Virus record (IMG/VR): IMGVR_UViG_3300031565_000061
Span: 1 to 48,436 of that record
Length of the DNA: 48,436 bases
Strand: one strand, 5' to 3'
From: a virus
The notes beneath the pieces are model-generated. The model saw only the letters and a program-made list of their open reading frames with translations. It did not search any database and was not told the origin of the DNA. The stretch's first letter is position 1, and each line of letters opens with the position of its first letter. Below are positions 4,258 to 45,152 of the stretch, one piece after another. A program made the position numbers and the translations under genes.

Positions 4258-4320
4258 ATTATAGCCCCCTAGAATCTTTTGGGAGCAAAAGAAAGGGCCG
4301 CTCCGCGTGTTGTGCAAAAG
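4258..4320 (-). promoter_or_regulatory. box-type phage promoter (site A)
   Basis: On the minus strand: a degenerate 14-bp box CTTTTGCACAACAC (4307-4320), 15 bp, the 16-bp box CTTTTGCTCCCAAAAG (4276-4291), 12 bp, and the -10 TATAAT (4258-4263). The same spacing recurs at five other intergenic sites. No TTGACA-like -35 exists; the 16-bp box covers that position. It would drive the gene at 4240, the tRNA-like element and the SSB-like operon. Confidence 0.7.
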
Positions 4321-4810: not shown

Positions 4811-6124
4811 TTAAAGCATCATCAAATCATTCTTACACACCAGGTCGCTCAATTGCCCCTGGCCCCCGCGCCGAAGATACGCCGTGCCCGTGGGACCGTC
4901 CCGGTGCTTGGCCACAATGGCCTCGGTCACAAACTGCCTGGGGCTTTCCGAATCGTAGTGACCAGCCCAGTACAGCATAATCACCACGTCCGCATCATGC
5001 TCCAGGTCTCCCGATTCCTTCAAATCCGCCAGCATGGGCCTCGGTGGCTTGCGGTTCTCCACCATCCGGCTCAGGGTGCATACCGCCACCACCGGGACCG
5101 AATGCTTCTGCGCCAGGGACTTTAACCGCCGCGAGATGTACGTCACCTCCTCCCGACGGTCCCTGAACCTGCGGCCCCCCTCCATACGGTGCACGTGGTC
5201 CACCACCACCAGCCGGGGAGGCTGGGGCATGGACGTGAGCGCCGCATCAATCCCCGCCGGTGAGAGGTCGTAATCCTCCCGCAGCAACACGGGGATCTCC
5301 AGCACAGACGCAACCTGCCCTACCCAGGACATAGCCTCTACATCCACCGTGCGCTTCCGCATGGCGTCCGAGGTCACCCCAGTGGCATAGCCAAGGATGC
5401 GACCTGCCAACTCCGGTTCCGTGCTCTCCACCGAGAACACCACCGTCGGACCCACGCCCAACTTAGCCAGGTTCAGGGCCGCTTGCAGGCACAAAGTAGT
5501 TTTGCCCATACTTGGCCGGCCCCCGATATAGCACAGGTCCCCCGGCTTCAATCCCCCAACCAATGAGTCCAGGTCTCGGAACCCAAAGGGAATCCGCGTC
5601 ACCGCGCCCGACAGCTCCATCGCCAATGCACTCCAGTAGGCCTCCAAAGCACTCTCGAAAGGCACTACCGCTCCTTGCAAATCGGCCCTCACAGAAACCT
5701 GATTGAGCAAGACCTGAGCCTGCTCCAGGAGTTCCGGCACACCGTAGCCGCCCTCGCAGGCCATGTTCTGCAACTCAATACCCGCCACTATCAAGCGGCG
5801 CCGATTCGCCAGGGCCAGAACCTCGCGGGCATAGGACGCGAAATGAGCACTGGTCGGTGTGGCCTCAATGAGCGAAGCCACGTATGCCGTCCCGCCCACA
5901 GCCTCCAAGTGTCCGCGGTCCTCCAAGGCCCGGCATAGCAGCGTGTAATCCAGCGCCGAACCTGAGCGCCACAGCTCCAGCATGGCCCCGTAGACTGTGC
6001 TGTGCGCCTCCCGGTAGAAGTCCTCTGGGAGCAACACAGCCTCAGCCTCAGCCAAGAGTGCGGGGTCCAGGAGCAAGCTGCCGAGGGCCGACCTCTCTAC
6101 GTCCACATCATAGGGTTCGCTCAT
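4811..6124 (-). CDS. dnaB: replicative DNA helicase, DnaB family
   Basis: A 437-residue protein of normal DnaB length and order. The N-terminal helical domain starts VDVERSALGSLLLDP (residues 8-22). The RecA-like domain follows, with Walker A GGRPSMGKT (201-209), Walker B LVVVDH (305-310) and the late block ESGDLEHDADVVIML (370-384). DnaB is the hexameric 5'-3' helicase that opens the replication fork. ATG 6124 follows a GGTGGAG site, and this leader directly abuts the terminal repeat of the CRISPR array. Read-through from tnpB and the array into dnaB therefore seems likely. No intein or insertion is seen. Confidence 0.95.
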   Translation of the reverse strand: MSEPYDVDVERSALGSLLLDPALLAEAEAVLLPEDFYREAHSTVYGAMLELWRSGSALDYTLLCRALEDRGHLEAVGGTAYVASLIEATPTSAHFASYAREVLALANRRRLIVAGIELQNMACEGGYGVPELLEQAQVLLNQVSVRADLQGAVVPFESALEAYWSALAMELSGAVTRIPFGFRDLDSLVGGLKPGDLCYIGGRPSMGKTTLCLQAALNLAKLGVGPTVVFSVESTEPELAGRILGYATGVTSDAMRKRTVDVEAMSWVGQVASVLEIPVLLREDYDLSPAGIDAALTSMPQPPRLVVVDHVHRMEGGRRFRDRREEVTYISRRLKSLAQKHSVPVVAVCTLSRMVENRKPPRPMLADLKESGDLEHDADVVIMLYWAGHYDSESPRQFVTEAIVAKHRDGPTGTAYLRRGGQGQLSDLVCKNDLMML

Positions 6125-6135
6125 TTAGTCTCCAC

Positions 6136-6413
6136 CGAATCCCCCCCTCACATACGCATGGGGTACACGTATGCTGGCGTGCAATCGCTTGTCATTTGAC
6201 GAATCCCCCACATGCGCATGGGGTGCACTTCGTCCTGCGCAGCCGCAAGCACAGGGCCAACGAATCCCCCACATGCGCATGGGGTGCACGGGTTTCTGCG
6301 GCTTCTGGCAATACTTGCCGTACGAATCCCCCACATGCGCATGGGGTGCACGTTTGGGGTCGTCGTTTCAGACCCGCATCTGCGCGAATCCCCCACATGC
6401 GCATGGGGTGCAC
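6136..6413 (-). CRISPR. five-repeat type I-E-like CRISPR mini-array
   Basis: Four identical 29-bp repeats lie at 6200-6228, 6261-6289, 6323-6351 and 6385-6413. Minus-strand repeats start GTGCACCCCATGCG and end TGTGGGGGATTCG, forming a CCCC/GGGG hairpin. Spacers are 32, 33 and 33 bp (6229-6260, 6290-6322, 6352-6384). A fifth, degenerate repeat (6136-6168, two substitutions and a four-base insertion) follows a 31-bp spacer. The repeat length, 61-62 bp period, GTG start and degenerate terminal repeat match type I-E arrays transcribed leftward, with the leader side next to tnpB. No cas1, cas2, cas3 or Cascade gene is visible in the window. Confidence 0.9.
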
Positions 6414-6446
6414 CCTTCACAATAGCCATTGCCCACGCGAATGAGG

Positions 6447-6464
6447 ACCCCGTCAATTCGGGGT
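6447..6464 (-). other. hairpin between tnpB and CRISPR array
   Basis: A perfect 6-bp stem, ACCCCG with CGGGGT around a 6-nt loop, lies in the 59-bp stretch separating the tnpB stop (6473) from the first repeat (6413). There is no T-tract, so it is not a classical terminator. It sits where an IS605-type omega RNA scaffold would be expected, and also where a CRISPR leader would be. Confidence 0.5.
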
Positions 6465-6472
6465 TGCGGGTC

Positions 6473-7684
6473 TTATGCATCTATCACCTCCTGCTGCCCG
6501 CTTGACGCTTCATCGGGAGGACTTGAGGCCCCTATCCCTCCACGCCCAGTGACCGCCGATTCGTCGGCCAACTTTAGCGCCGCCGCTAGAATATTCTGGG
6601 CAGCGTTTAGGTCCCTGTCATGAACAGCCCCACAATCGCAAGTCCACCTCCTATCTGAAAGTGTCAGATTATCATTGATGCAACCGCACTCAGAGCACAG
6701 CTTGCTGGACGGGAACCAACGGTCCACGAGCCTCAGTTTACTGCCGCTCCACGCGGTCTTGTACGTCAACTGCTGGCGCAACCGATTGAAATTGGAGTCT
6801 GACACGGCCTTTGCCAAGTGACGATTCTTGACCATGCCTTTGACATTCAAGTCCTCCATAGCTACGAGGCCGTAGTCCCTAGTCACCTCCGCCGTGGCTT
6901 GATGTGCCGCATTTACCCGCACATCCTTGATCCGCTTCTGTATCCGCTGGACTCTCAGCTTTGCCCTAGCCCGCCGCTTACTCCCCTTAGTCTTGCAGGA
7001 TAGTTGGCGCTGTGACCGCGCCAGTAGCTTCTCTAGCTCATAGGTAGCCTTCGGATTCTCATATCGCTTCCCATCAGAAAGCGTCATTAGCGTTTTGATA
7101 CCGACGTCGATGCCCACCACAGGGTCAGCACTACGATCCGGAGGATCGGGTATCTCAGTCTCAACGACGAAGGATGCATACCACCGCCCCGCCTCTTCAC
7201 TGACAGCCACTGTCCCAACCATCTTGCCCTCAAATCGCAGGGCCTTGCTCATCCTAACCCATCCAAGTTTAGGCAACTTGACGCTCCGTCGGTCTTCGCT
7301 CAATTGCACGAGGTACGCCGTGACGTGGAAAACGCGCCGCGCCGTCCGTCTTGACTTGAACTTTGGGAAACCCTTTTTGGCCTCTCCATTCTTGACCCGC
7401 CGGAAGAAGTTCTGGTATGCCCTGTCCATGTTCCATATTGCATTGACAAGCGTGTCTCGCAGGATATCATTGAGCCACGCCCTTTCCAGCGTGTGTTTCT
7501 CAATAGTCAAGAGTTTCTGCACACCGTACTTACTCAGTGACTTGCCCTCTTGCTCATAGGCTGTCTTCTTCTGTTCTAGCGCCCAGTTGTAAGTCCAACG
7601 GTAAGCACCAACCCAGCGGTTGAAACCGCTTCGGTGCTCATTGTTGGGTCTCAGTTGTATCCTATGGCTCTTCTGTACAATCAT
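6473..7684 (-). CDS. tnpB: TnpB / IS605 OrfB-like RNA-guided nuclease
   Basis: A 403-residue, full-length TnpB-family protein. The N-terminus (SHRIQLRPNNEHRSGFNRWV) is the usual OrfB helix-turn-helix region. The RuvC-like domain keeps all three acidic residues: D193 in GIDVGIKT, E277 in VAMEDLN and D358 in HDRDLNAA. A zinc ribbon lies between them (CSEC at 330-333, CDC at 349-351). TnpB proteins are RNA-guided DNA endonucleases, and Cas12 effectors evolved from them. No TnpA transposase accompanies it. Upstream are a consensus promoter and a structured leader; the CRISPR array begins 59 bp downstream on the same strand. The ribosome site is weak (AAGGCG). Confidence 0.92.
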   Translation of the reverse strand: MIVQKSHRIQLRPNNEHRSGFNRWVGAYRWTYNWALEQKKTAYEQEGKSLSKYGVQKLLTIEKHTLERAWLNDILRDTLVNAIWNMDRAYQNFFRRVKNGEAKKGFPKFKSRRTARRVFHVTAYLVQLSEDRRSVKLPKLGWVRMSKALRFEGKMVGTVAVSEEAGRWYASFVVETEIPDPPDRSADPVVGIDVGIKTLMTLSDGKRYENPKATYELEKLLARSQRQLSCKTKGSKRRARAKLRVQRIQKRIKDVRVNAAHQATAEVTRDYGLVAMEDLNVKGMVKNRHLAKAVSDSNFNRLRQQLTYKTAWSGSKLRLVDRWFPSSKLCSECGCINDNLTLSDRRWTCDCGAVHDRDLNAAQNILAAALKLADESAVTGRGGIGASSPPDEASSGQQEVIDA

Positions 7685-7696
7685 CGCCTTATGTCA

Positions 7697-7787
7697 AAGG
7701 GGTCACACATTGCCTTGCGTCCCGCTACAGGTGCGCGTGGCCTGCATGACCCCTTCTATAACAAAACAACCACGCCGCACCTGTAGC
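7697..7787 (-). promoter_or_regulatory. interleaved inverted repeats in tnpB leader
   Basis: Two inverted repeats interlock. One is an imperfect 17/18-bp pair at 7770-7787 and 7724-7740 (GCTACAGGTGCG with CGCACCTGTAGC cores). The other is a perfect 9-bp pair, AAGGGGTCA with TGACCCCTT, at 7747-7755 and 7697-7705. In the leader RNA the order is a-b-a'-b', so both stems together would form a pseudoknot, or the two could exclude each other. The 5' arm begins at about the predicted transcription start, and the last arm ends 12 bases before the tnpB start codon. Confidence 0.6.
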
Positions 7788-7793
7788 ATTATC

Positions 7794-7822
7794 AGTATAG
7801 CAGATTCCTTCCGGTTTGTCAA
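7794..7822 (-). promoter_or_regulatory. sigma-70 consensus promoter for tnpB
   Basis: On the minus strand, TTGACA (7817-7822), a 17-bp spacer and TATACT (7794-7799). The predicted start, near 7787, coincides with the first base of the leader hairpin. It lies about 30 bp downstream of box promoter B, so tnpB, the array and dnaB have two tandem promoters of different types. Confidence 0.75.
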
Positions 7823-7844
7823 GCCTCATTTACTTCACTCACTC

Positions 7845-7878
7845 ATTATAGATCGCTAAAACCTTTTGGGAGCAAAAG
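7845..7878 (-). promoter_or_regulatory. box-type phage promoter (site B)
   Basis: The 16-bp box CTTTTGCTCCCAAAAG (7863-7878) is identical to site A. It is followed by 12 bp and the -10 TATAAT (7845-7850). No 14-bp upstream box is visible. It begins just after the stop of the gene at 7885 and reads toward tnpB. Confidence 0.7.
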
Positions 7879-7884
7879 AAAGCA

Positions 7885-15401: not shown

Positions 15402-15446
15402 CTTTTGCGCAAAAGCGCAGCCCACAGTTTCCTTTGCCAGCAAAAC
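15402..15446 (+). promoter_or_regulatory. paired regulator boxes without a clear -10 (site D)
   Basis: Read on the plus strand: CTTTTGCGCAAAAG (15402-15415), 15 bp, then the 16-bp box CCTTTGCCAGCAAAAC (15431-15446). This is the same pair and gap seen upstream of promoters A, E and G, but in the opposite orientation, and no -10 follows at 12 bp. On the minus strand it lies between two genes, with the 14-bp palindrome touching the ribosome site of the gene at 15392. It may be an operator rather than a promoter. Confidence 0.55.
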
Positions 15447-15447
15447 A

Positions 15448-20334: not shown

Positions 20335-21080
20335 TCATTCCAGTTCTAGTATTGTCTGCTCTGGCTGCATCACGAAGAGGGGTGGCTGGGTGTTCCTCAC
20401 CCGCTCCCTCGCCCGCTCTGCTACGTCGGGGTCTATCTCGAAGGCGAGGTAGTGATCGCCCTCTAGCCATGCGGCTATGGGGGTGGTCCCTGAGCCAACA
20501 AATGGGTCCAATACAACCCGCCCCCGTTCATGCTTGGCTATGAGTTGCTGCAATAGAGCGAGTGGCTTTTCTGCGGGATGCCTTCTGTCTTTCTGGAGAA
20601 CCCCCCTACATCTCAGAATGTCCCCATCGCCCGTGGGAACCCTCTGCGCCCCCACTCCTTCGCCCCACGCAATCAACTCATGCTGGTGTCGCCACGTGTA
20701 TCCGTTGTAGGAAACAATCTTGTCCCATATCAGGGGCCGCACATACTTGAAGTGCGGAAACATGGCTGGATAGAACAGCGGGTAACTCTGCCCATCACAG
20801 AAGACATAGGCGCTTCCCGTCTGCTTTAGAACACGGCCCAAATCCGCAAATAGATCCCCAAAGAATCCAGAAAGTATCGACGTGTCAGCCAGCGTCCTCC
20901 TCGTATAGCCCTCACCACGCACCCCAACATAGGACTGAACTGGCAAGAAGTAGGGCGGGTCAGTCACTATCAAGTCCACGCTCTCATCCGGTATCGCCGG
21001 AGTAAGCTCCTTAGCGTCACCCGTGATGATGGTGCAGCAAGGATATGGCCCTATGAACCGCCCGCAGCCGTCGCTCACGT
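20335..21080 (-). CDS. DNA methyltransferase (DPPY type)
   Basis: A 248-residue amino-methyltransferase. The catalytic DPPY lies at residues 40-43, in the block SVDLIVTDPPY, and the SAM-binding DPFVGSGTT at 191-199, giving the beta-class order. These enzymes methylate N6-adenine or N4-cytosine in DNA. No restriction enzyme is adjacent, so self-protection or regulation is more likely than a complete restriction system. GTG 21080 behind AGGGGGAC was chosen. The N-terminus (GCGRFIGPYPCCTIITGDAKE) has a truncated relative at 33957-34097. Confidence 0.85.
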
Positions 21081-21085
21081 CCCCC

Positions 21086-22351
21086 TCACTTCTGGTGATA
21101 CCACAGGAACCCATCATCAGGACGCCACATGCGCATGACCGTGTGCTCATTCAGCTCCTCCGCCACATGCCGAAGCCGGGGCAGCCGGGCATGGACTACC
21201 CGGACCCGCCCATAGAGCCAGCACCCGAAGCCCACACGCGCATTGTACTCCGGGGGCAGGATATACATTTTCAGCCCGTGACGGTTGAGCCACAGCACGT
21301 CCCGCAGGGGCGACTCGTCATTGTCGCCGTAGATATGCGCGTACTTCTCATAGAATGCCTGCCAGTCCGCCAGTGTGGCCCGGACCTTCGCGTTGTTGCA
21401 GAAGAGGCTCACCCCGATGGACAGCGTGGTGAACGCAGGCGGCGTTCCGATAGCACTGGGCATGGCCTCCCGGCCCGCAGAATGACCCAGGCACACGTCG
21501 AACTGCTCCAGGAGCCACCACATATCCAGGCAATCCCAGGACACCCACGTATCCGTATCAAGGTACAAGAGCCGGTTGTACTCATGAAGCTGCCCCACAG
21601 CCCAATTGAAGTACCGCGTGCTGTCCAGGTACCACAGTTCGCTCTCCCGAGGGGGCAACGTCACTACGTGGTCAATGCAATCCCTGTCCTTCGTGCCCCC
21701 CACAGCGAACAGGAAGGTCTCCACCCTGGGCATGTGCTCCTTGAGGCTGGACGCGCTATAGGCCGCCTCATCTGCATACGGCTCACCATCCACGATGTAG
21801 AACGCGGCCCTCCTGTGCCGTGGATTCCTGCGCAGCACGGCCACCCGGTCTTGCCCCTCCAGTACCCGCACGAAGTTCCCTGAGTCCACGGCCTCCTGCA
21901 TCACCCGCGCCGTGCCCAAGCTACTGTAACCCAGCCCCGCGATGGCGATGTGCCCGTCCTCCATAACCTTGTCCGCCCAGGCATCCCAGACGCATTTGAG
22001 ACCGTCGTACTCCATAGACACGTCAATCCACACCAGGGCCGTAGGCAAGTCCCAATTCTCGCCCACCAGCACGCCGTCCTCTTCGACGAAGGCCACCAAA
22101 CGCCCCAGGCCCGTACCCACCACCTGATCGACGGCTTCCTGCTTGCACTCCGGGCCGTAGGTGCCACCCAATTTGTCCACGTATGGCGCGTAGGGATCCA
22201 CGGCATACACGGGCAAGAGCCTTCCGTAACGGGTGCCGTTGAGCAGGGCCACCAACCCGTCACCCTTGCCCACCCCAACCTCTACAATCACGCCGCCGTC
22301 AGCCTGCTCAGCCAGGTGTGTCTCCACCTCGTGACGATTGGAAAAGATCAT
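21086..22351 (-). CDS. methyltransferase-glycosyltransferase fusion
   Basis: A 421-residue two-domain protein. The N-terminal domain has a SAM-binding loop VIVEVGVGKGDG (21-32) and an acidic strand-end VYAVDP, like class I O-methyltransferases. The C-terminal domain has LLYLDTDTWV (261-270), the DxD metal/nucleotide-sugar motif, in a GT8-like context (PSAIGTPPAFTTLSIGVSLF, YNARVGFGCWLYG). A likely role is to add and methylate a sugar on one glycan. The gene at 25886-27064 has the same two domain types in reverse order. ATG 22351 overlaps the upstream stop. Confidence 0.75.
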   Translation of the reverse strand: MIFSNRHEVETHLAEQADGGVIVEVGVGKGDGLVALLNGTRYGRLLPVYAVDPYAPYVDKLGGTYGPECKQEAVDQVVGTGLGRLVAFVEEDGVLVGENWDLPTALVWIDVSMEYDGLKCVWDAWADKVMEDGHIAIAGLGYSSLGTARVMQEAVDSGNFVRVLEGQDRVAVLRRNPRHRRAAFYIVDGEPYADEAAYSASSLKEHMPRVETFLFAVGGTKDRDCIDHVVTLPPRESELWYLDSTRYFNWAVGQLHEYNRLLYLDTDTWVSWDCLDMWWLLEQFDVCLGHSAGREAMPSAIGTPPAFTTLSIGVSLFCNNAKVRATLADWQAFYEKYAHIYGDNDESPLRDVLWLNRHGLKMYILPPEYNARVGFGCWLYGRVRVVHARLPRLRHVAEELNEHTVMRMWRPDDGFLWYHQK

Positions 22352-24630
22352 TGCGCTGACTCCTCATTGACTAACGAAAACAAATCAGGCTGATTCGCTA
22401 CAGCCTCCGCTTTCTGGAGGTTTCCGACCATGACCTCGAAATACTCTGGTTTCAGCTCTATACCCACGAAACCCCGCCCGGCCTTGACAGACTCAAAACC
22501 CTCACTACCGATGCCCGCAAACGGTGATAGTATTGTCTCTCCAGGATTGGAATAGAGCATCACGCACCGCCGGATCGTCGGCAATTGCAAGGGGCAAATA
22601 TGCTTCTCATCATCGGCCTCCCGCGCGTGCTGGTACTGAAGAGTATCCGTCTCCTGAATATCAGTCCAGATCCCATTAGCCCACTGTACCCATAGGTCAT
22701 TGTCCATCTCACCGTTTTCTACCGGAGTCACCGGCACAGCGTTCTCACCGGGTTTCTTGAACAACAGAACATGATCGACAAGCGCCGGGCGACTGTCCGC
22801 TGAGTCCTTACGCAACTGGACAAACAACAGCGCCTTAGAGTGCGTCCGTATGGCCTGGGCCTGCGGGTTTTTGCCGACTAGAATGCGTCCATGGAATACC
22901 CATCCCTCCGCCTCGTGCGCAGCGATCACCGCGCCAGGAAAATCCTTGATGCCGATATACCCATCCTTCTGCGCCAACGCCGGGATGTCTGAGGTGTGAA
23001 CGCAGCACAAGCGCCCCGGCTTGACTACACGCAAAACCTCCCGGATCACAAAAGAATAGTGACACAAGAACTCCTTCCAATCACGCGAATTGCCCAGGTC
23101 GCGGGGGCTATCACTATACGTATAGAGATCAGCAAACGGCGGTGAGTATATGCACAGGTCTACCGAATCATTGTCAAGTTCCGCCAGCCTCTCGCAGGAG
23201 TCGCCCCGCAACGCTTTCCAAGTATTGCCTTTGACAACACATCCTGCCTGATCTTGCACTACAGACGTTCCCATCCCCAATTCCTCCCTCTCATAAAGAT
23301 GCATCTTGCCAATCAAACCTTCCCGTAGCCGCCTGGCCTGGGCATCCTTACGCATCACGTTGCGGTACACATCAGCCTCGATATCCGACATAATCAGGTG
23401 CACGTCTACAGGGTGCTCCTGAAGATACCTCCACTCCCTGCGCACACACTGATAGTATTGTTCCCACGAGTGCGAAAGCCCCAGGAACGCCATCTTGTGG
23501 GCATTCTGGAAGTTCATGCCGAACCCGCCGATAGTAGGTTTGGTCACAAGCACACGAAACTTGCCATCCTGAAAGTCCTCAAAGGAACTGGCCTTGTAGT
23601 CAGGCGAATCACTACCCTTGACTTCTACCGCACCGTCCAGAGCCTCCGTCGCAGCCCGGCCTTCCTCATCCAGCCCCACCCAGACTATCCACTGTTGGCC
23701 GTCTCCGTCAATGATCTCCTGAAGCCGTTCAAGGCGTGGGCCAAGCGTCGCTCTACGAATAGCCGAATGCTCCCTTATACCCCTAGCGCGAGTGAAAAAC
23801 AGCCTATCACCCGGCTCATACTTCGCCTGCTCAAAGTGCTTATGCAGCCTAAGTGCAGGAAGTCTGAAATCCATATCGTCATATCCCAAGTCAGACGGCT
23901 TCCGTATGGCCATAGCCCAAGATGCCAACCAGCGGAAGAAAGGCTCTTCGGCATGGTGCTTCAACCGCCACTCCTGGCCGCCCTTATTGCTCCCCTTCCT
24001 GCGATACGACTTTCCATTGACAAACATAGTATGCTCTTTGTTAGCATTGACGAAGAACATAGCCAGCATCTCAGCACGCGAACACACGCCCAAAAACTCC
24101 GCATGATTGCCCAGCTCTATGAAGTCATTCGGGGCAGGCGTTGCTGTGCAACACAGGCGATAGGGAACAGCCTGACAAGCCTCCGTCAGCTTGCGGCGCG
24201 TCTTGCCTGAGATGCATTTCAATATACTGGATTCGTCCAGCACCACCGCGCCGAATGCCGATACATCAAAGGCGTTCACCATTTCATAGTTCGTTATCCA
24301 GAGCTGACCGTCGCCCACAACCGCATCTTGACTACGAACATAACCTATTTCAAGATCAATCTTGCGAGCTTCTCTTACCGTTTGCCTGGCCACACTGAGC
24401 GGGGCAATAATGAGCGTTTTCTCCCCTAGCAACCTGGCCCATTCCAATTGAATGAAGGTCTTGCCCAGCCCGGTATCAGCGAATACCGCTGCCATGCCCT
24501 TCCGTACTGCCCAGAGCGTAATATCCCGCTGGAAAGCAAACAGCTTAGAATGCACGTCATCGGTAGTAAACTCTTTGCCCCGATCACGCCTAATCATCCT
24601 CTTCGATTTAAGAAATGAATCATAGGTCAC
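22348..24630 (-). CDS. helicase-DNA methylase fusion
   Basis: A 760-residue protein. The N-terminal half is a superfamily 2 helicase: Walker A DTGLGKT (52-58), a DESS box (132-135), a TATP motif (162-165) and, further on, an arginine-rich SF2 end (YYQCVRREWRY). The C-terminal half is a DNA methylase with SPPF (496-499) and the SAM loop LSPFAGIGSEG (701-711). S-P-P-F/Y is typical of N4-cytosine enzymes. Such fusions occur in phages and may methylate while translocating. GTG 24630, overlapping the upstream stop as GTGA, is preferred to an in-frame codon at 24687. Confidence 0.85.
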   Translation of the reverse strand: MTYDSFLKSKRMIRRDRGKEFTTDDVHSKLFAFQRDITLWAVRKGMAAVFADTGLGKTFIQLEWARLLGEKTLIIAPLSVARQTVREARKIDLEIGYVRSQDAVVGDGQLWITNYEMVNAFDVSAFGAVVLDESSILKCISGKTRRKLTEACQAVPYRLCCTATPAPNDFIELGNHAEFLGVCSRAEMLAMFFVNANKEHTMFVNGKSYRRKGSNKGGQEWRLKHHAEEPFFRWLASWAMAIRKPSDLGYDDMDFRLPALRLHKHFEQAKYEPGDRLFFTRARGIREHSAIRRATLGPRLERLQEIIDGDGQQWIVWVGLDEEGRAATEALDGAVEVKGSDSPDYKASSFEDFQDGKFRVLVTKPTIGGFGMNFQNAHKMAFLGLSHSWEQYYQCVRREWRYLQEHPVDVHLIMSDIEADVYRNVMRKDAQARRLREGLIGKMHLYEREELGMGTSVVQDQAGCVVKGNTWKALRGDSCERLAELDNDSVDLCIYSPPFADLYTYSDSPRDLGNSRDWKEFLCHYSFVIREVLRVVKPGRLCCVHTSDIPALAQKDGYIGIKDFPGAVIAAHEAEGWVFHGRILVGKNPQAQAIRTHSKALLFVQLRKDSADSRPALVDHVLLFKKPGENAVPVTPVENGEMDNDLWVQWANGIWTDIQETDTLQYQHAREADDEKHICPLQLPTIRRCVMLYSNPGETILSPFAGIGSEGFESVKAGRGFVGIELKPEYFEVMVGNLQKAEAVANQPDLFSLVNEESAQ

Positions 24631-25436
24631 TTCATTCCCCCCATCGCGTACCAGTGCCCCGGCCTCACCATCGGGAAGATGGACCACAGCAGGTCATCCC
24701 TCTCATTCATCTCAAAATCATATACCCAATCCAGGTTGTCCACGTCATCCCAACGGTCCTGCATGGCAAAGAGGTAACTGGCCGCTCCATGATCCGTACG
24801 GCCCCCGCCAAGGTAGGGCTTACGGTCCGCCAACGGGACTTCACTCAATGAATAACAGGCCACCAACAGGTCCGAACGTGGCGGCCCGATGGCCTCCAGG
24901 AACTCCACCGCACAGCCCAGCTCATGCCGCGACAGGTAGTAGCTCTGAAGCAGGCACATCTCCGGAAAGTCCACCATCCGGTAGGTCCCGCGGAACCCCA
25001 GCCGTGAGGCAATCAGGGCCATAGCCCCATAGCCCCCGCCGAACTCCGTGATGGTCTCCAGATCCCGCAGTTCCTTGAGCGTAGCCTTGTTCCACATCAT
25101 CAGGTGAAACGCCTGATGCACCATATTGGCGTTCGTAGACGGCTCCCCTGACATCCTCGGGGCCTGGCCCACGCCGCTGTCCTCAATGGCCGGAAGCCAA
25201 AGGGTCTCCCAATCAGGCTGCGCCCGCAGGGCCTCCAGCTCAGACCGGATGAAGGGGGTCTCCCCCGCAAACATGGTGGCCGTCACCGTGGGCCAGCTCA
25301 GGAATACCGCGATGGGATCCCGACGCACATGGCGCCGCATCTCCCACCTGTGCCGCTCCCACGTGTACCGGGGCGGGGCCTCGTCACTCATCGGCTCCAG
25401 TGATGCAAAGGCGTCTTTGAGTTGCTGTTCGTTCAT
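24627..25436 (-). CDS. putative sugar O-methyltransferase
   Basis: A protein of about 269 residues with a SAM-binding loop EFGGGYGAMALIASRLG (about 139-155) and MVDFPEMCLLQSYYL shortly after, the pattern of the putative sugar O-methyltransferase family found in polysaccharide clusters. ATG 25436 is coupled to the upstream stop (TGATG); a GTG lies one codon earlier. Its neighbours are glycosyltransferases and methyltransferases. Confidence 0.65.
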   Translation of the reverse strand: MNEQQLKDAFASLEPMSDEAPPRYTWERHRWEMRRHVRRDPIAVFLSWPTVTATMFAGETPFIRSELEALRAQPDWETLWLPAIEDSGVGQAPRMSGEPSTNANMVHQAFHLMMWNKATLKELRDLETITEFGGGYGAMALIASRLGFRGTYRMVDFPEMCLLQSYYLSRHELGCAVEFLEAIGPPRSDLLVACYSLSEVPLADRKPYLGGGRTDHGAASYLFAMQDRWDDVDNLDWVYDFEMNERDDLLWSIFPMVRPGHWYAMGGMK

Positions 25437-27083: not shown

Positions 27084-27117
27084 ATGATACCACGCCGCTT
27101 CCTTTTGCCAGCAAAAG
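27084..27117 (-). promoter_or_regulatory. box-type phage promoter (site C)
   Basis: The 16-bp box CTTTTGCTGGCAAAAG (27102-27117), a perfect palindrome apart from its centre, 12 bp, then TATCAT (27084-27089). It starts three bases after the stop of the radical SAM gene and reads into the fusion gene at 27064. No 14-bp upstream box is seen. Confidence 0.65.
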
Positions 27118-27119
27118 AT

Positions 27120-36598: not shown

Positions 36599-36661
36599 AG
36601 TATAGCCGGACTCAAACCTTTGCTAGCAAAAGAACGTGGGACTCATCCTTTTGCGCAAAAG
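36599..36661 (-). promoter_or_regulatory. box-type phage promoter (site E)
   Basis: On the minus strand: the perfect 14-bp palindrome CTTTTGCGCAAAAG (36648-36661), 15 bp, the 16-bp box CTTTTGCTAGCAAAGG (36617-36632), 12 bp, and TATACT (36599-36604). It reads into fcl at 36538, at the start of the glycan block. Confidence 0.75.
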
Positions 36662-37839: not shown

Positions 37840-37873
37840 ATTATACCCCGGCACGATGTTTTGGGAGCAAAAG
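37840..37873 (-). promoter_or_regulatory. box-type phage promoter (site F)
   Basis: The 16-bp box CTTTTGCTCCCAAAAC (37858-37873), 12 bp, then TATAAT (37840-37845). A degenerate half-site (GCGCGAAAAG on the plus strand) lies near where the 14-bp box would be expected. It drives the lysis genes. Confidence 0.7.
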
Positions 37874-37933
37874 AATCACGACATGTCGTCCGCGCGAAAA
37901 GTCCGTCATATACTATACACCTTTAGTTAGTTA

Positions 37934-45089: not shown

Positions 45090-45152
45090 ATTATTGCCCC
45101 CTAAGATGTTTTGCCCGCAAAAGAAAGGCCCCGGTTTCCTTTTGCGCAAAAG
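45090..45152 (-). promoter_or_regulatory. box-type phage promoter (site G)
   Basis: On the minus strand: the perfect 14-bp palindrome CTTTTGCGCAAAAG (45139-45152), 15 bp, the 16-bp box CTTTTGCGGGCAAAAC (45108-45123), 12 bp, and AATAAT (45090-45095). It reads into the distal-tail-like gene at 45061. Spacing is identical to site E. Confidence 0.7.

Follow-up and report, generated by a model that had tools for sequence, protein, structure and literature searches.

A CRISPR-type array with type I-E-like spacing beside a phage tnpB gene: a candidate TnpB guide array

Introduction

TnpB is the ancestor of Cas12. This protein ancestry is clear; the step from a single transposon guide to a CRISPR array is still open. 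Several related systems have been described. Independent associations of TnpB with CRISPR arrays are put at about 50 (PMC12669027), landfills have yielded two viral TnpBs, 401 and 433 aa long, that lie near CRISPR arrays (PMC12607003), and the system of cyanophage CL131 is V-U2, with 36-nt repeats (PMC6293099). In the structure of ISDra2 TnpB, the loop of stem 1 (-103 to -105) pairs with the RNA bases just ahead of the guide (-5 to -3) to form a pseudoknot, which is described as conserved in all Cas12 guide RNAs (PMC10097598).

We describe a locus, found in two sister phages, that has the arrangement of subtype V-U, a TnpB-like RuvC nuclease adjoining a CRISPR array. A sequence-only reading had placed a type I-E-like mini-array between tnpB and dnaB in a phage, and this placement is borne out (tnpB, 6473-7684; dnaB, 4811-6124).

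The array and the phages that carry it

The window, by which we mean the whole stretch of DNA analysed (48,436 bases), is the IMG/VR record of a tailed phage: it encodes tape measure and minor tail proteins and DnaB, and the terminase is found on an overlapping record, G003. PHROGs annotation took in 30 window proteins and 10 of the 18 ORFs listed from the first 20 kb of G003. Proteins resembling DNA methyltransferases and glycosyltransferases are encoded at 20335-24687 of the window and at 15831-18470 of L022, and they suggest genes for DNA modification and surface sugars in this phage.

The exact repeat occurs in IMG/VR in four stretches of three records, representing two related phages, a count that may omit records very near the window. 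G003 (69 kb) is from the same phage as the window, called A below, and G001 (42 kb) is from a sister phage, B. The third record, G002 (IMGVR_UViG_3300031566_000001, 143 kb), consists of A and B joined at the tnpB-array region (62226-63847 and 136022-137643). The join is probably an assembly chimera formed via the near-identical stretch, the alternative being real recombination at the shared cassette; phage B would be a full circle of about 74 kb within G002.

In phage A the array is on the minus strand, 59 nt 3' of the tnpB stop codon, and dnaB lies beyond it. It contains four perfect copies of the 29-nt repeat GTGCACCCCATGCGCATGTGGGGGATTCG, reading from 6413-6385 through 6351-6323 and 6289-6261 to 6228-6200. 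Its parts, all delimited from the sequence, are as follows.

6385..6413, minus strand: repeat 1 (scaffold-proximal), 29 nt, tail GATTCG
6352..6384, minus strand: spacer w1, 33 nt
6323..6351, minus strand: repeat 2, identical to repeat 1
6290..6322, minus strand: spacer w2, 33 nt
6261..6289, minus strand: repeat 3, identical to repeat 1
6229..6260, minus strand: spacer w3, 32 nt
6200..6228, minus strand: repeat 4, identical to repeat 1
6169..6199, minus strand: spacer w4, 31 nt
6136..6168, minus strand: degenerate terminal (fifth) repeat with two substitutions and a 4-nt insertion, GATTCG tail retained

The four identical 29-nt repeats and the degenerate end are thus as first described, and the spacers (33, 33, 32 and 31 nt) include one shorter than the 32-33 nt then given. 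No further match to the repeat was found in the window outside the array, searching both strands of the 48,436 bases at up to 10 mismatches, and Rfam at the gathering threshold gave no match.

Phage B has tnpB, a similar pre-array stretch and the same repeat, but its two spacers (34 and 32 nt) are different and its array ends in a degenerate repeat of its own; in both phages the degenerate terminal repeat retains the tail. A non-CRISPR tandem repeat was considered and ruled out, since the spacers differ at the same locus between the sister phages. A chance origin is likewise excluded, because the sister phage has the same locus and repeat but other spacers. The mini-array is a genuine CRISPR-type array with spacer turnover.

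Its dimensions are those of type I-E (a repeat of about 29 nt and a period of about 61 nt): successive periods are 62, 62, 61 and 60 in phage A, and 63 and 61 in phage B. The repeat starts with GTG and has a central hairpin, the A and B spacers measure 31-34 nt, and the first base is T in five of these six spacers. The canonical type I-E repeat hairpin has a 4-nt loop and an 8-nt 3' handle; the A/B repeat is predicted to fold otherwise, its minimum free energy structure, taken alone, having a stem of positions 6-11 with 18-23, a 6-nt loop and a 6-nt tail. The match to type I-E proposed from the sequence holds for the 29/32 dimensions and the period of about 61, and does not extend to the predicted hairpin.

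The tnpB gene, the shared cassette and cas gene content

The array shares a cassette with tnpB and a promoter-like site.

6136..7842, minus strand: tnpB-array cassette common to A and B (A/B alignment)
6473..7684, minus strand: tnpB, 403 aa, proposed effector (match to solved TnpB, residues 1-383)
7794..7822, minus strand: promoter-like TTGACA-17-TATACT (11/12) for tnpB, within the shared cassette (consensus score)

Judged from its sequence, tnpB is intact and ISDra2-like. Residues 1-383 align with solved TnpB 8bf8 (E 9e-72); this structure, with 8exa and 8h1j, we take to be ISDra2 TnpB. The D/E/D residues are retained in the three RuvC acidic motifs, GIDVGIK, AMEDLN and HDRDLNAA. Beyond A and B the nearest relatives are 39-41% identical among IMG/VR loci found by peptide patterns, and relatives fall below 60% identity in all 394 phage records and, with a single exception, in 3,562 plasmid records.

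Outside the cassette A and B are less alike. Their aligned pieces are about 69-90% identical (pieces of at least 200 nt in a self-comparison of G002, setting apart the 94% tnpB stretch), and identity taken in 100-nt steps is 85-100% inside tnpB versus 32-87% in the flanks. The step that spans the 59-nt stretch, the first repeat and the start of the first spacer stands at 77%, because the A and B spacers differ. The left edge of the cassette is near 7842, where 125 difference-free columns begin, and the right edge is the last base of the last repeat. Over the 707 columns that the pure B record G001 covers, the A tnpB shows 95.8% identity to it; compared with the B-like copy in G002, which is A-like in its first part, 27 codons differ, eight with an amino-acid change. 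The 5' part of the B cassette, for which the joined record G002 is the sole source, has 10 differences, none of them beyond the first 320 columns, and the pre-array stretch (59 nt in A, 60 nt in B) has 7 differences per 60 columns.

No cas1, cas2 or Cascade gene was seen among the best 25 of 75 PADLOC families matched by the 59 window ORFs, those 25 being 24 methyltransferase profiles and mad2. The Cas7e family PF09344 was found in none of four phage records, and no TnpA family was among the best 25 of 35 Pfam families matched by the same ORFs. The early observation that no cas gene is present is upheld within these scans, for adaptation and Cascade genes; 'no effector gene' is not quite right, because TnpB is the ancestor of Cas12.

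Transcription of tnpB and the array

The site at 7794-7822 before tnpB is the best promoter-like site of the region, in which four such sites were found against 1.0 in shuffled sequences. The 59 nt before the array contain no promoter-like site. From these promoter sites and the shared cassette region, tnpB and the array are likely to be co-transcribed; the array need not rely on the tnpB promoter, since a weak promoter-like site (9/12) lies inside tnpB at 6621-6593.

Two other signals were observed. A palindromic CTTTTGNNNGCAAAAGA-like motif occurs at seven window sites (14 strand matches against 0.16 expected): 4275-4292, 7862-7879, 15430-15447, 27101-27118, 36616-36633, 37857-37874 and 45107-45124. 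The site before tnpB is followed by TATAAT, as expected of an operator-promoter. Upstream of tnpB, at 7699-7753 on the minus strand, GGGGTCATGC makes up an inverted repeat together with TGACCCC in A and with GCATGGCCCC in B; the sequence of this inverted repeat has changed between the phages and pairing is possible in both, so it may be a structured 5' leader.

A predicted guide-RNA scaffold and repeats with a putative pseudoknot tail

Features of a TnpB guide RNA can be recognized at the 3' end of tnpB and in the stretch between it and the array.

6548..6573, minus strand: predicted stem 1 of the TnpB RNA scaffold, within the tnpB 3' end (constrained fold)
6558..6563, minus strand: CGAATC in the stem-1 loop, predicted pseudoknot partner (complementarity to GATTCG; position as in the cited passages of PMC10097598)
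6447..6464, minus strand: hairpin ACCCC-GAATTGAC-GGGGT, located where TnpB RNA canonically has its terminal stem (sequence and alignment)
6414..6472, minus strand: 59-nt stretch from the tnpB stop codon to repeat 1, resembling an anti-repeat in that pairing with the repeat is possible for its 3' half (A/B alignment and pairing energies)

In both A and B, GATTCG, the last six bases of every repeat and directly before the spacer, is the perfect complement of the loop CGAATC. The predicted complementarity of a stem-1 loop and a guide-adjacent tail, a mark of OMEGA TnpB RNAs, is thus present. With loop and tail held unpaired, the A and B scaffolds both fold with CGAATC in the stem-1 hairpin loop; in this constrained fold the pre-array stretch pairs with repeat 1, and the repeat's own hairpin is therefore absent. 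Unconstrained, the A scaffold still forms stem 1 and has no direct CGAATC-GATTCG pairing; the B scaffold gives up stem 1, and CGAATC pairs directly with GATTCG.

The pseudoknot match was sought after the fact, and chance short complementary words occur elsewhere in scaffolds. Among non-duplicate phage TnpB loci, 32 of 71 have a recognizable terminal stem with a TTCA tail, and 31 of these 32 have one of three loosely defined words upstream. In 27 of the 32 (from a list read by eye) GGAAC or GGGAC, complementary to the tail GTTC, lies at +54 to +88 after the zinc ribbon; many of these 27 are close kin, so they check the model and do not count as 27 events. In seven array-less relatives, where visual choice of loop and tail was followed by a check, the pairing extends over 4-5 bases in six and over just three in L211, a cellular locus. 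At loci with arrays, loop and tail are ACCTG and CAGGG in L035, and GTGTA and TACAA in L100 and L106, which are related; L093 has no complementary word at the canonical place. No stem-1 loop is matched by the tail of another lineage (A, B and L035 folded; L100 and L106 by eye).

Behind the stem-4-like hairpin of A, ATTCG (6438-6442) marks the old guide junction; B is without ATTCG there, though its repeats retain it. Pairing of the pre-array stretch with the repeat reaches -31.9 kcal/mol in B, equalled by 2 of 1000 shuffles. In A it is -23.4 and not significant: 75 of 1000 shuffles do as well, and so do 317 of 4367 tiles taken from the window. The anti-repeat is significant in L100 (0 of 300 shuffles) and not in L035 (222 of 1000) or L106 (109 of 300). 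The repeat is itself nearly palindromic (repeat-repeat pairing, -31.7), and for this reason the anti-repeat may be just a decayed repeat copy.

Other TnpB loci with arrays

Peptide patterns yielded 80 TnpB loci in IMG/VR, 77 of them with at least 200 nt beyond tnpB. Repeat pairs were present within 500 nt 3' of tnpB at 10 of these 77 loci, compared with 7 of 961 control segments, one of which was the continued L100 array. With copies and the weak L038 removed, six distinct loci have repeat pairs: A, B, L035, L093, L100 and L106.

L035 has a 29-nt repeat unrelated to that of A and B, two 32-nt spacers and a degenerate third repeat; its first repeat starts, by eye, at the position expected for its RNA's terminal hairpin. 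The association of TnpB with an array is thus conserved: both sister phages have it, and in L035 a related TnpB is likewise followed by a 29/32 array. Spacer 2 of L035 (3757-3788 / 5347-5378) has a match within its own phage that agrees in 29 of 32 bases, where three shuffles reach 21-22. The self-match lies next to an inverted repeat, some 245 bp upstream of where the TnpB match starts, and resembles SPV1/SPV2, in which, in the cited passages, spacers hit near-array regions of sister viruses and the carrier is mutated (PMC6858448).

In a tree of 74 TnpB proteins (67 different), a supported branch separates a set of 12 rows that includes A/B and L035 from L093, L100 and L106. The branches starred in the tree force at least two changes of the array label, given a midpoint root and long branches.

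Further phage arrays were noted after TnpB-like genes, from 5471 onward in L100, from 5424 onward in L106, and from 5408 onward in L093 and L107. The repeats are 36 nt in L100 and L093, and these TnpB-like genes are set apart from A/B in the tree. About 2 kb from another phage tnpB (L105, 7085-7175) a 29-nt repeat, CTCGCATCCACATATGCGTGGATGTCTGG, occurs twice, at a distance of 62 nt.

Cellular TnpB relatives were collected as 45 loci from 233 genomes, of which the 24 with a script-recognized zinc ribbon were retained and 21 dropped. None of the 24 has a CRISPR-like array; L211 alone has a two-copy repeat, about 0.6 kb downstream.

Searches for a host repeat and for protospacers

The sequence-only reading had proposed comparing the repeat with arrays of candidate hosts, and no host repeat came to light: a tolerant 29-base pattern had no match in 84,980 species genomes. 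A looser pattern of two repeats and a gap had three matches there (Peptococcaceae, Terriglobia and Oxalobacteraceae), all rejected as unrelated tandem repeats. At up to three mismatches the repeat was in none of 396 genomes of the phylum of the Terriglobia match, a phylum picked for convenience; an array near the Cas7e gene of one Terriglobia genome (G004) has a period of 61. Lack of a host repeat is weak evidence, because the host may be unsampled. TerL matches in actinophages, weak at 24-28% identity among the matches listed, hint at a possible actinobacterial host.

The search for protospacers, also proposed at the outset, gave no targets. A relaxed pattern found none in IMG/VR for w1, w2 or v1 of phage B, three of the six A/B spacers. 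For w3 the best non-self match in 1.76 Mb was 22/32, with three shuffles reaching 20-21, and for w4 it was 22/31, with shuffles at 20. All six A/B spacers compared with four phage contigs gave best non-self values of 19-23 matches, within the shuffled range, and the whole array had no match in phages and plasmids at E up to 1.

Discussion

We regard it as moderately probable that the locus is a phage TnpB guide array, type V-U-like and with a single effector. A single transcript from the tnpB promoter would run through the array. The tnpB 3' end would serve as a tracrRNA-like scaffold, with CGAATC in its stem-1 loop, and the repeats would be copies of the guide RNA 3' end (hairpin and pseudoknot tail), and after each copy would come a guide of its own, about 32 nt long. 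Repeat-spacer RNA would dock on the scaffold via its GATTCG tail, perhaps aided by the pre-array anti-repeat, and the spacer would direct TnpB to the DNA of rival elements for guided cutting. New units would probably be added by a host I-E-type Cas1-Cas2, proposed because two independent TnpB arrays show the same 29 + 32 ruler.

What speaks against a guide array is that the 29-nt repeat, the 31-34-nt spacers, the GTG start and the central hairpin look type I-E. The same features, the fact that no Cascade gene was seen (Cas7e in 0 of 4 records; best 25 of 75 PADLOC families) and spacers that differ between sister phages, as in the cited account of SPV1/SPV2 (PMC6858448), favour a type I-E-kind virus mini-array that borrows host Cas6e and Cascade, with Cas1-Cas2, against rival phages, tnpB being a mere neighbour. 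Use of host Cascade was the first proposal. This reading, which we hold to be a minority possibility, drew no support from the 84,980 species genomes (two patterns) or the 396 genomes of one phylum, where no similar repeat was found (no tolerant-pattern match, three non-CRISPR two-repeat matches, 0/396); the point is weak, as the host may be unsampled. It also has to accommodate a predicted hairpin with a 6-nt loop and 6-nt tail where canonical type I-E has a 4-nt loop and 8-nt handle, and it leaves unexplained the match of loop and tail and the joint tnpB-array cassette. TnpB is the likelier user of the guides because tnpB and the array are one conserved cassette and the repeats carry an apparent pseudoknot tail. 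A point on the other side is that a hairpin resembling stem 4 is still present ahead of the array in A and B: TnpB could work with an ordinary guide, independently of the array. The type I-E ruler and the TnpB pseudoknot tail in one repeat could be reconciled if host I-E Cas1-Cas2 inserted the spacers and Cascade and TnpB both used them; such a dual-use guide store seems improbable to us, as it requires a host I-E system, which the genome searches did not find.

The sequence-only reading had also raised an RNA anti-CRISPR that mimics host repeats; by this mimicry the array would poison Cas proteins of the host. Phage Racrs do mimic CRISPR repeats and are described as solitary (PMC10651486), whereas this locus has five repeats with spacers, four of them intact, with distinct spacers and turnover; nor did the species genome scans find a host repeat to mimic. 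We consider the idea very improbable. Hardly credible, finally, is a transposon relic, a tnpB with decayed guide RNA beside a dead array: it would suit the lack of TnpA among the best 25 of 35 Pfam families and of any targets found, and it is contradicted by the perfect repeats, the few amino-acid changes in tnpB and the difference between A and B spacers.

If the locus is a TnpB guide array, phages wield compact nucleases of their own with exchangeable guides, not borrowed host Cascade. One route to it, which we offer tentatively as a possibility on the doubtful side, starts from a supposed resemblance of the TnpB terminal hairpin to a type I-E repeat. Host I-E Cas1-Cas2 may have added spacers there, each time copying the hairpin in the form of a 29-nt repeat, so that a one-guide TnpB became a multi-guide phage weapon; A/B and L035 would be separate instances, making at least two, and the old guide junction of B might already be a tracrRNA-like anti-repeat. 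A near-unchanged TnpB scaffold, repeats with its own tail and the spacer ruler of another type would together make the step from guide to array testable in the laboratory.

Comparison with known systems

In the literature searched we found no TnpB array with a type I-E ruler and pseudoknot-tail repeats, and an earlier description is possible. The A/B locus is like subtype V-U and TnpB-CRISPR systems in having a TnpB-like RuvC protein beside an array, in being phage-borne and in that cas1 and cas2 were not seen; it differs in that its TnpB is plain ISDra2-like and the RNA scaffold is still recognizable. The repeats of CL131 are 36 nt in the cited passages (PMC6293099), whereas those of A and B are 29 nt with spacers of about 32 nt. 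With the mini-arrays of SPV1 and SPV2, as described in the passages cited, A and B have in common that the array is short, that sister viruses carry it at one locus but differ in their spacers, and that no Cascade or Cas1/2 was seen (PMC6858448, PMC11656645). SPV1/SPV2 repeats equal host repeats and their spacers hit the sister virus (same sources), and neither was found for A and B; in A and B, unlike SPV1/SPV2, the phage's own nuclease gene precedes the array. In its proposed mechanism the locus also resembles the OMEGA TnpB of ISDra2, where the cited passages describe the same kind of protein, a 3'-end scaffold and a stem-1 loop complementary to the pre-guide bases (PMC10097598). ISDra2 has one guide per element (PMC10097598), whereas A and B have several repeat-tail-guide units in tandem.
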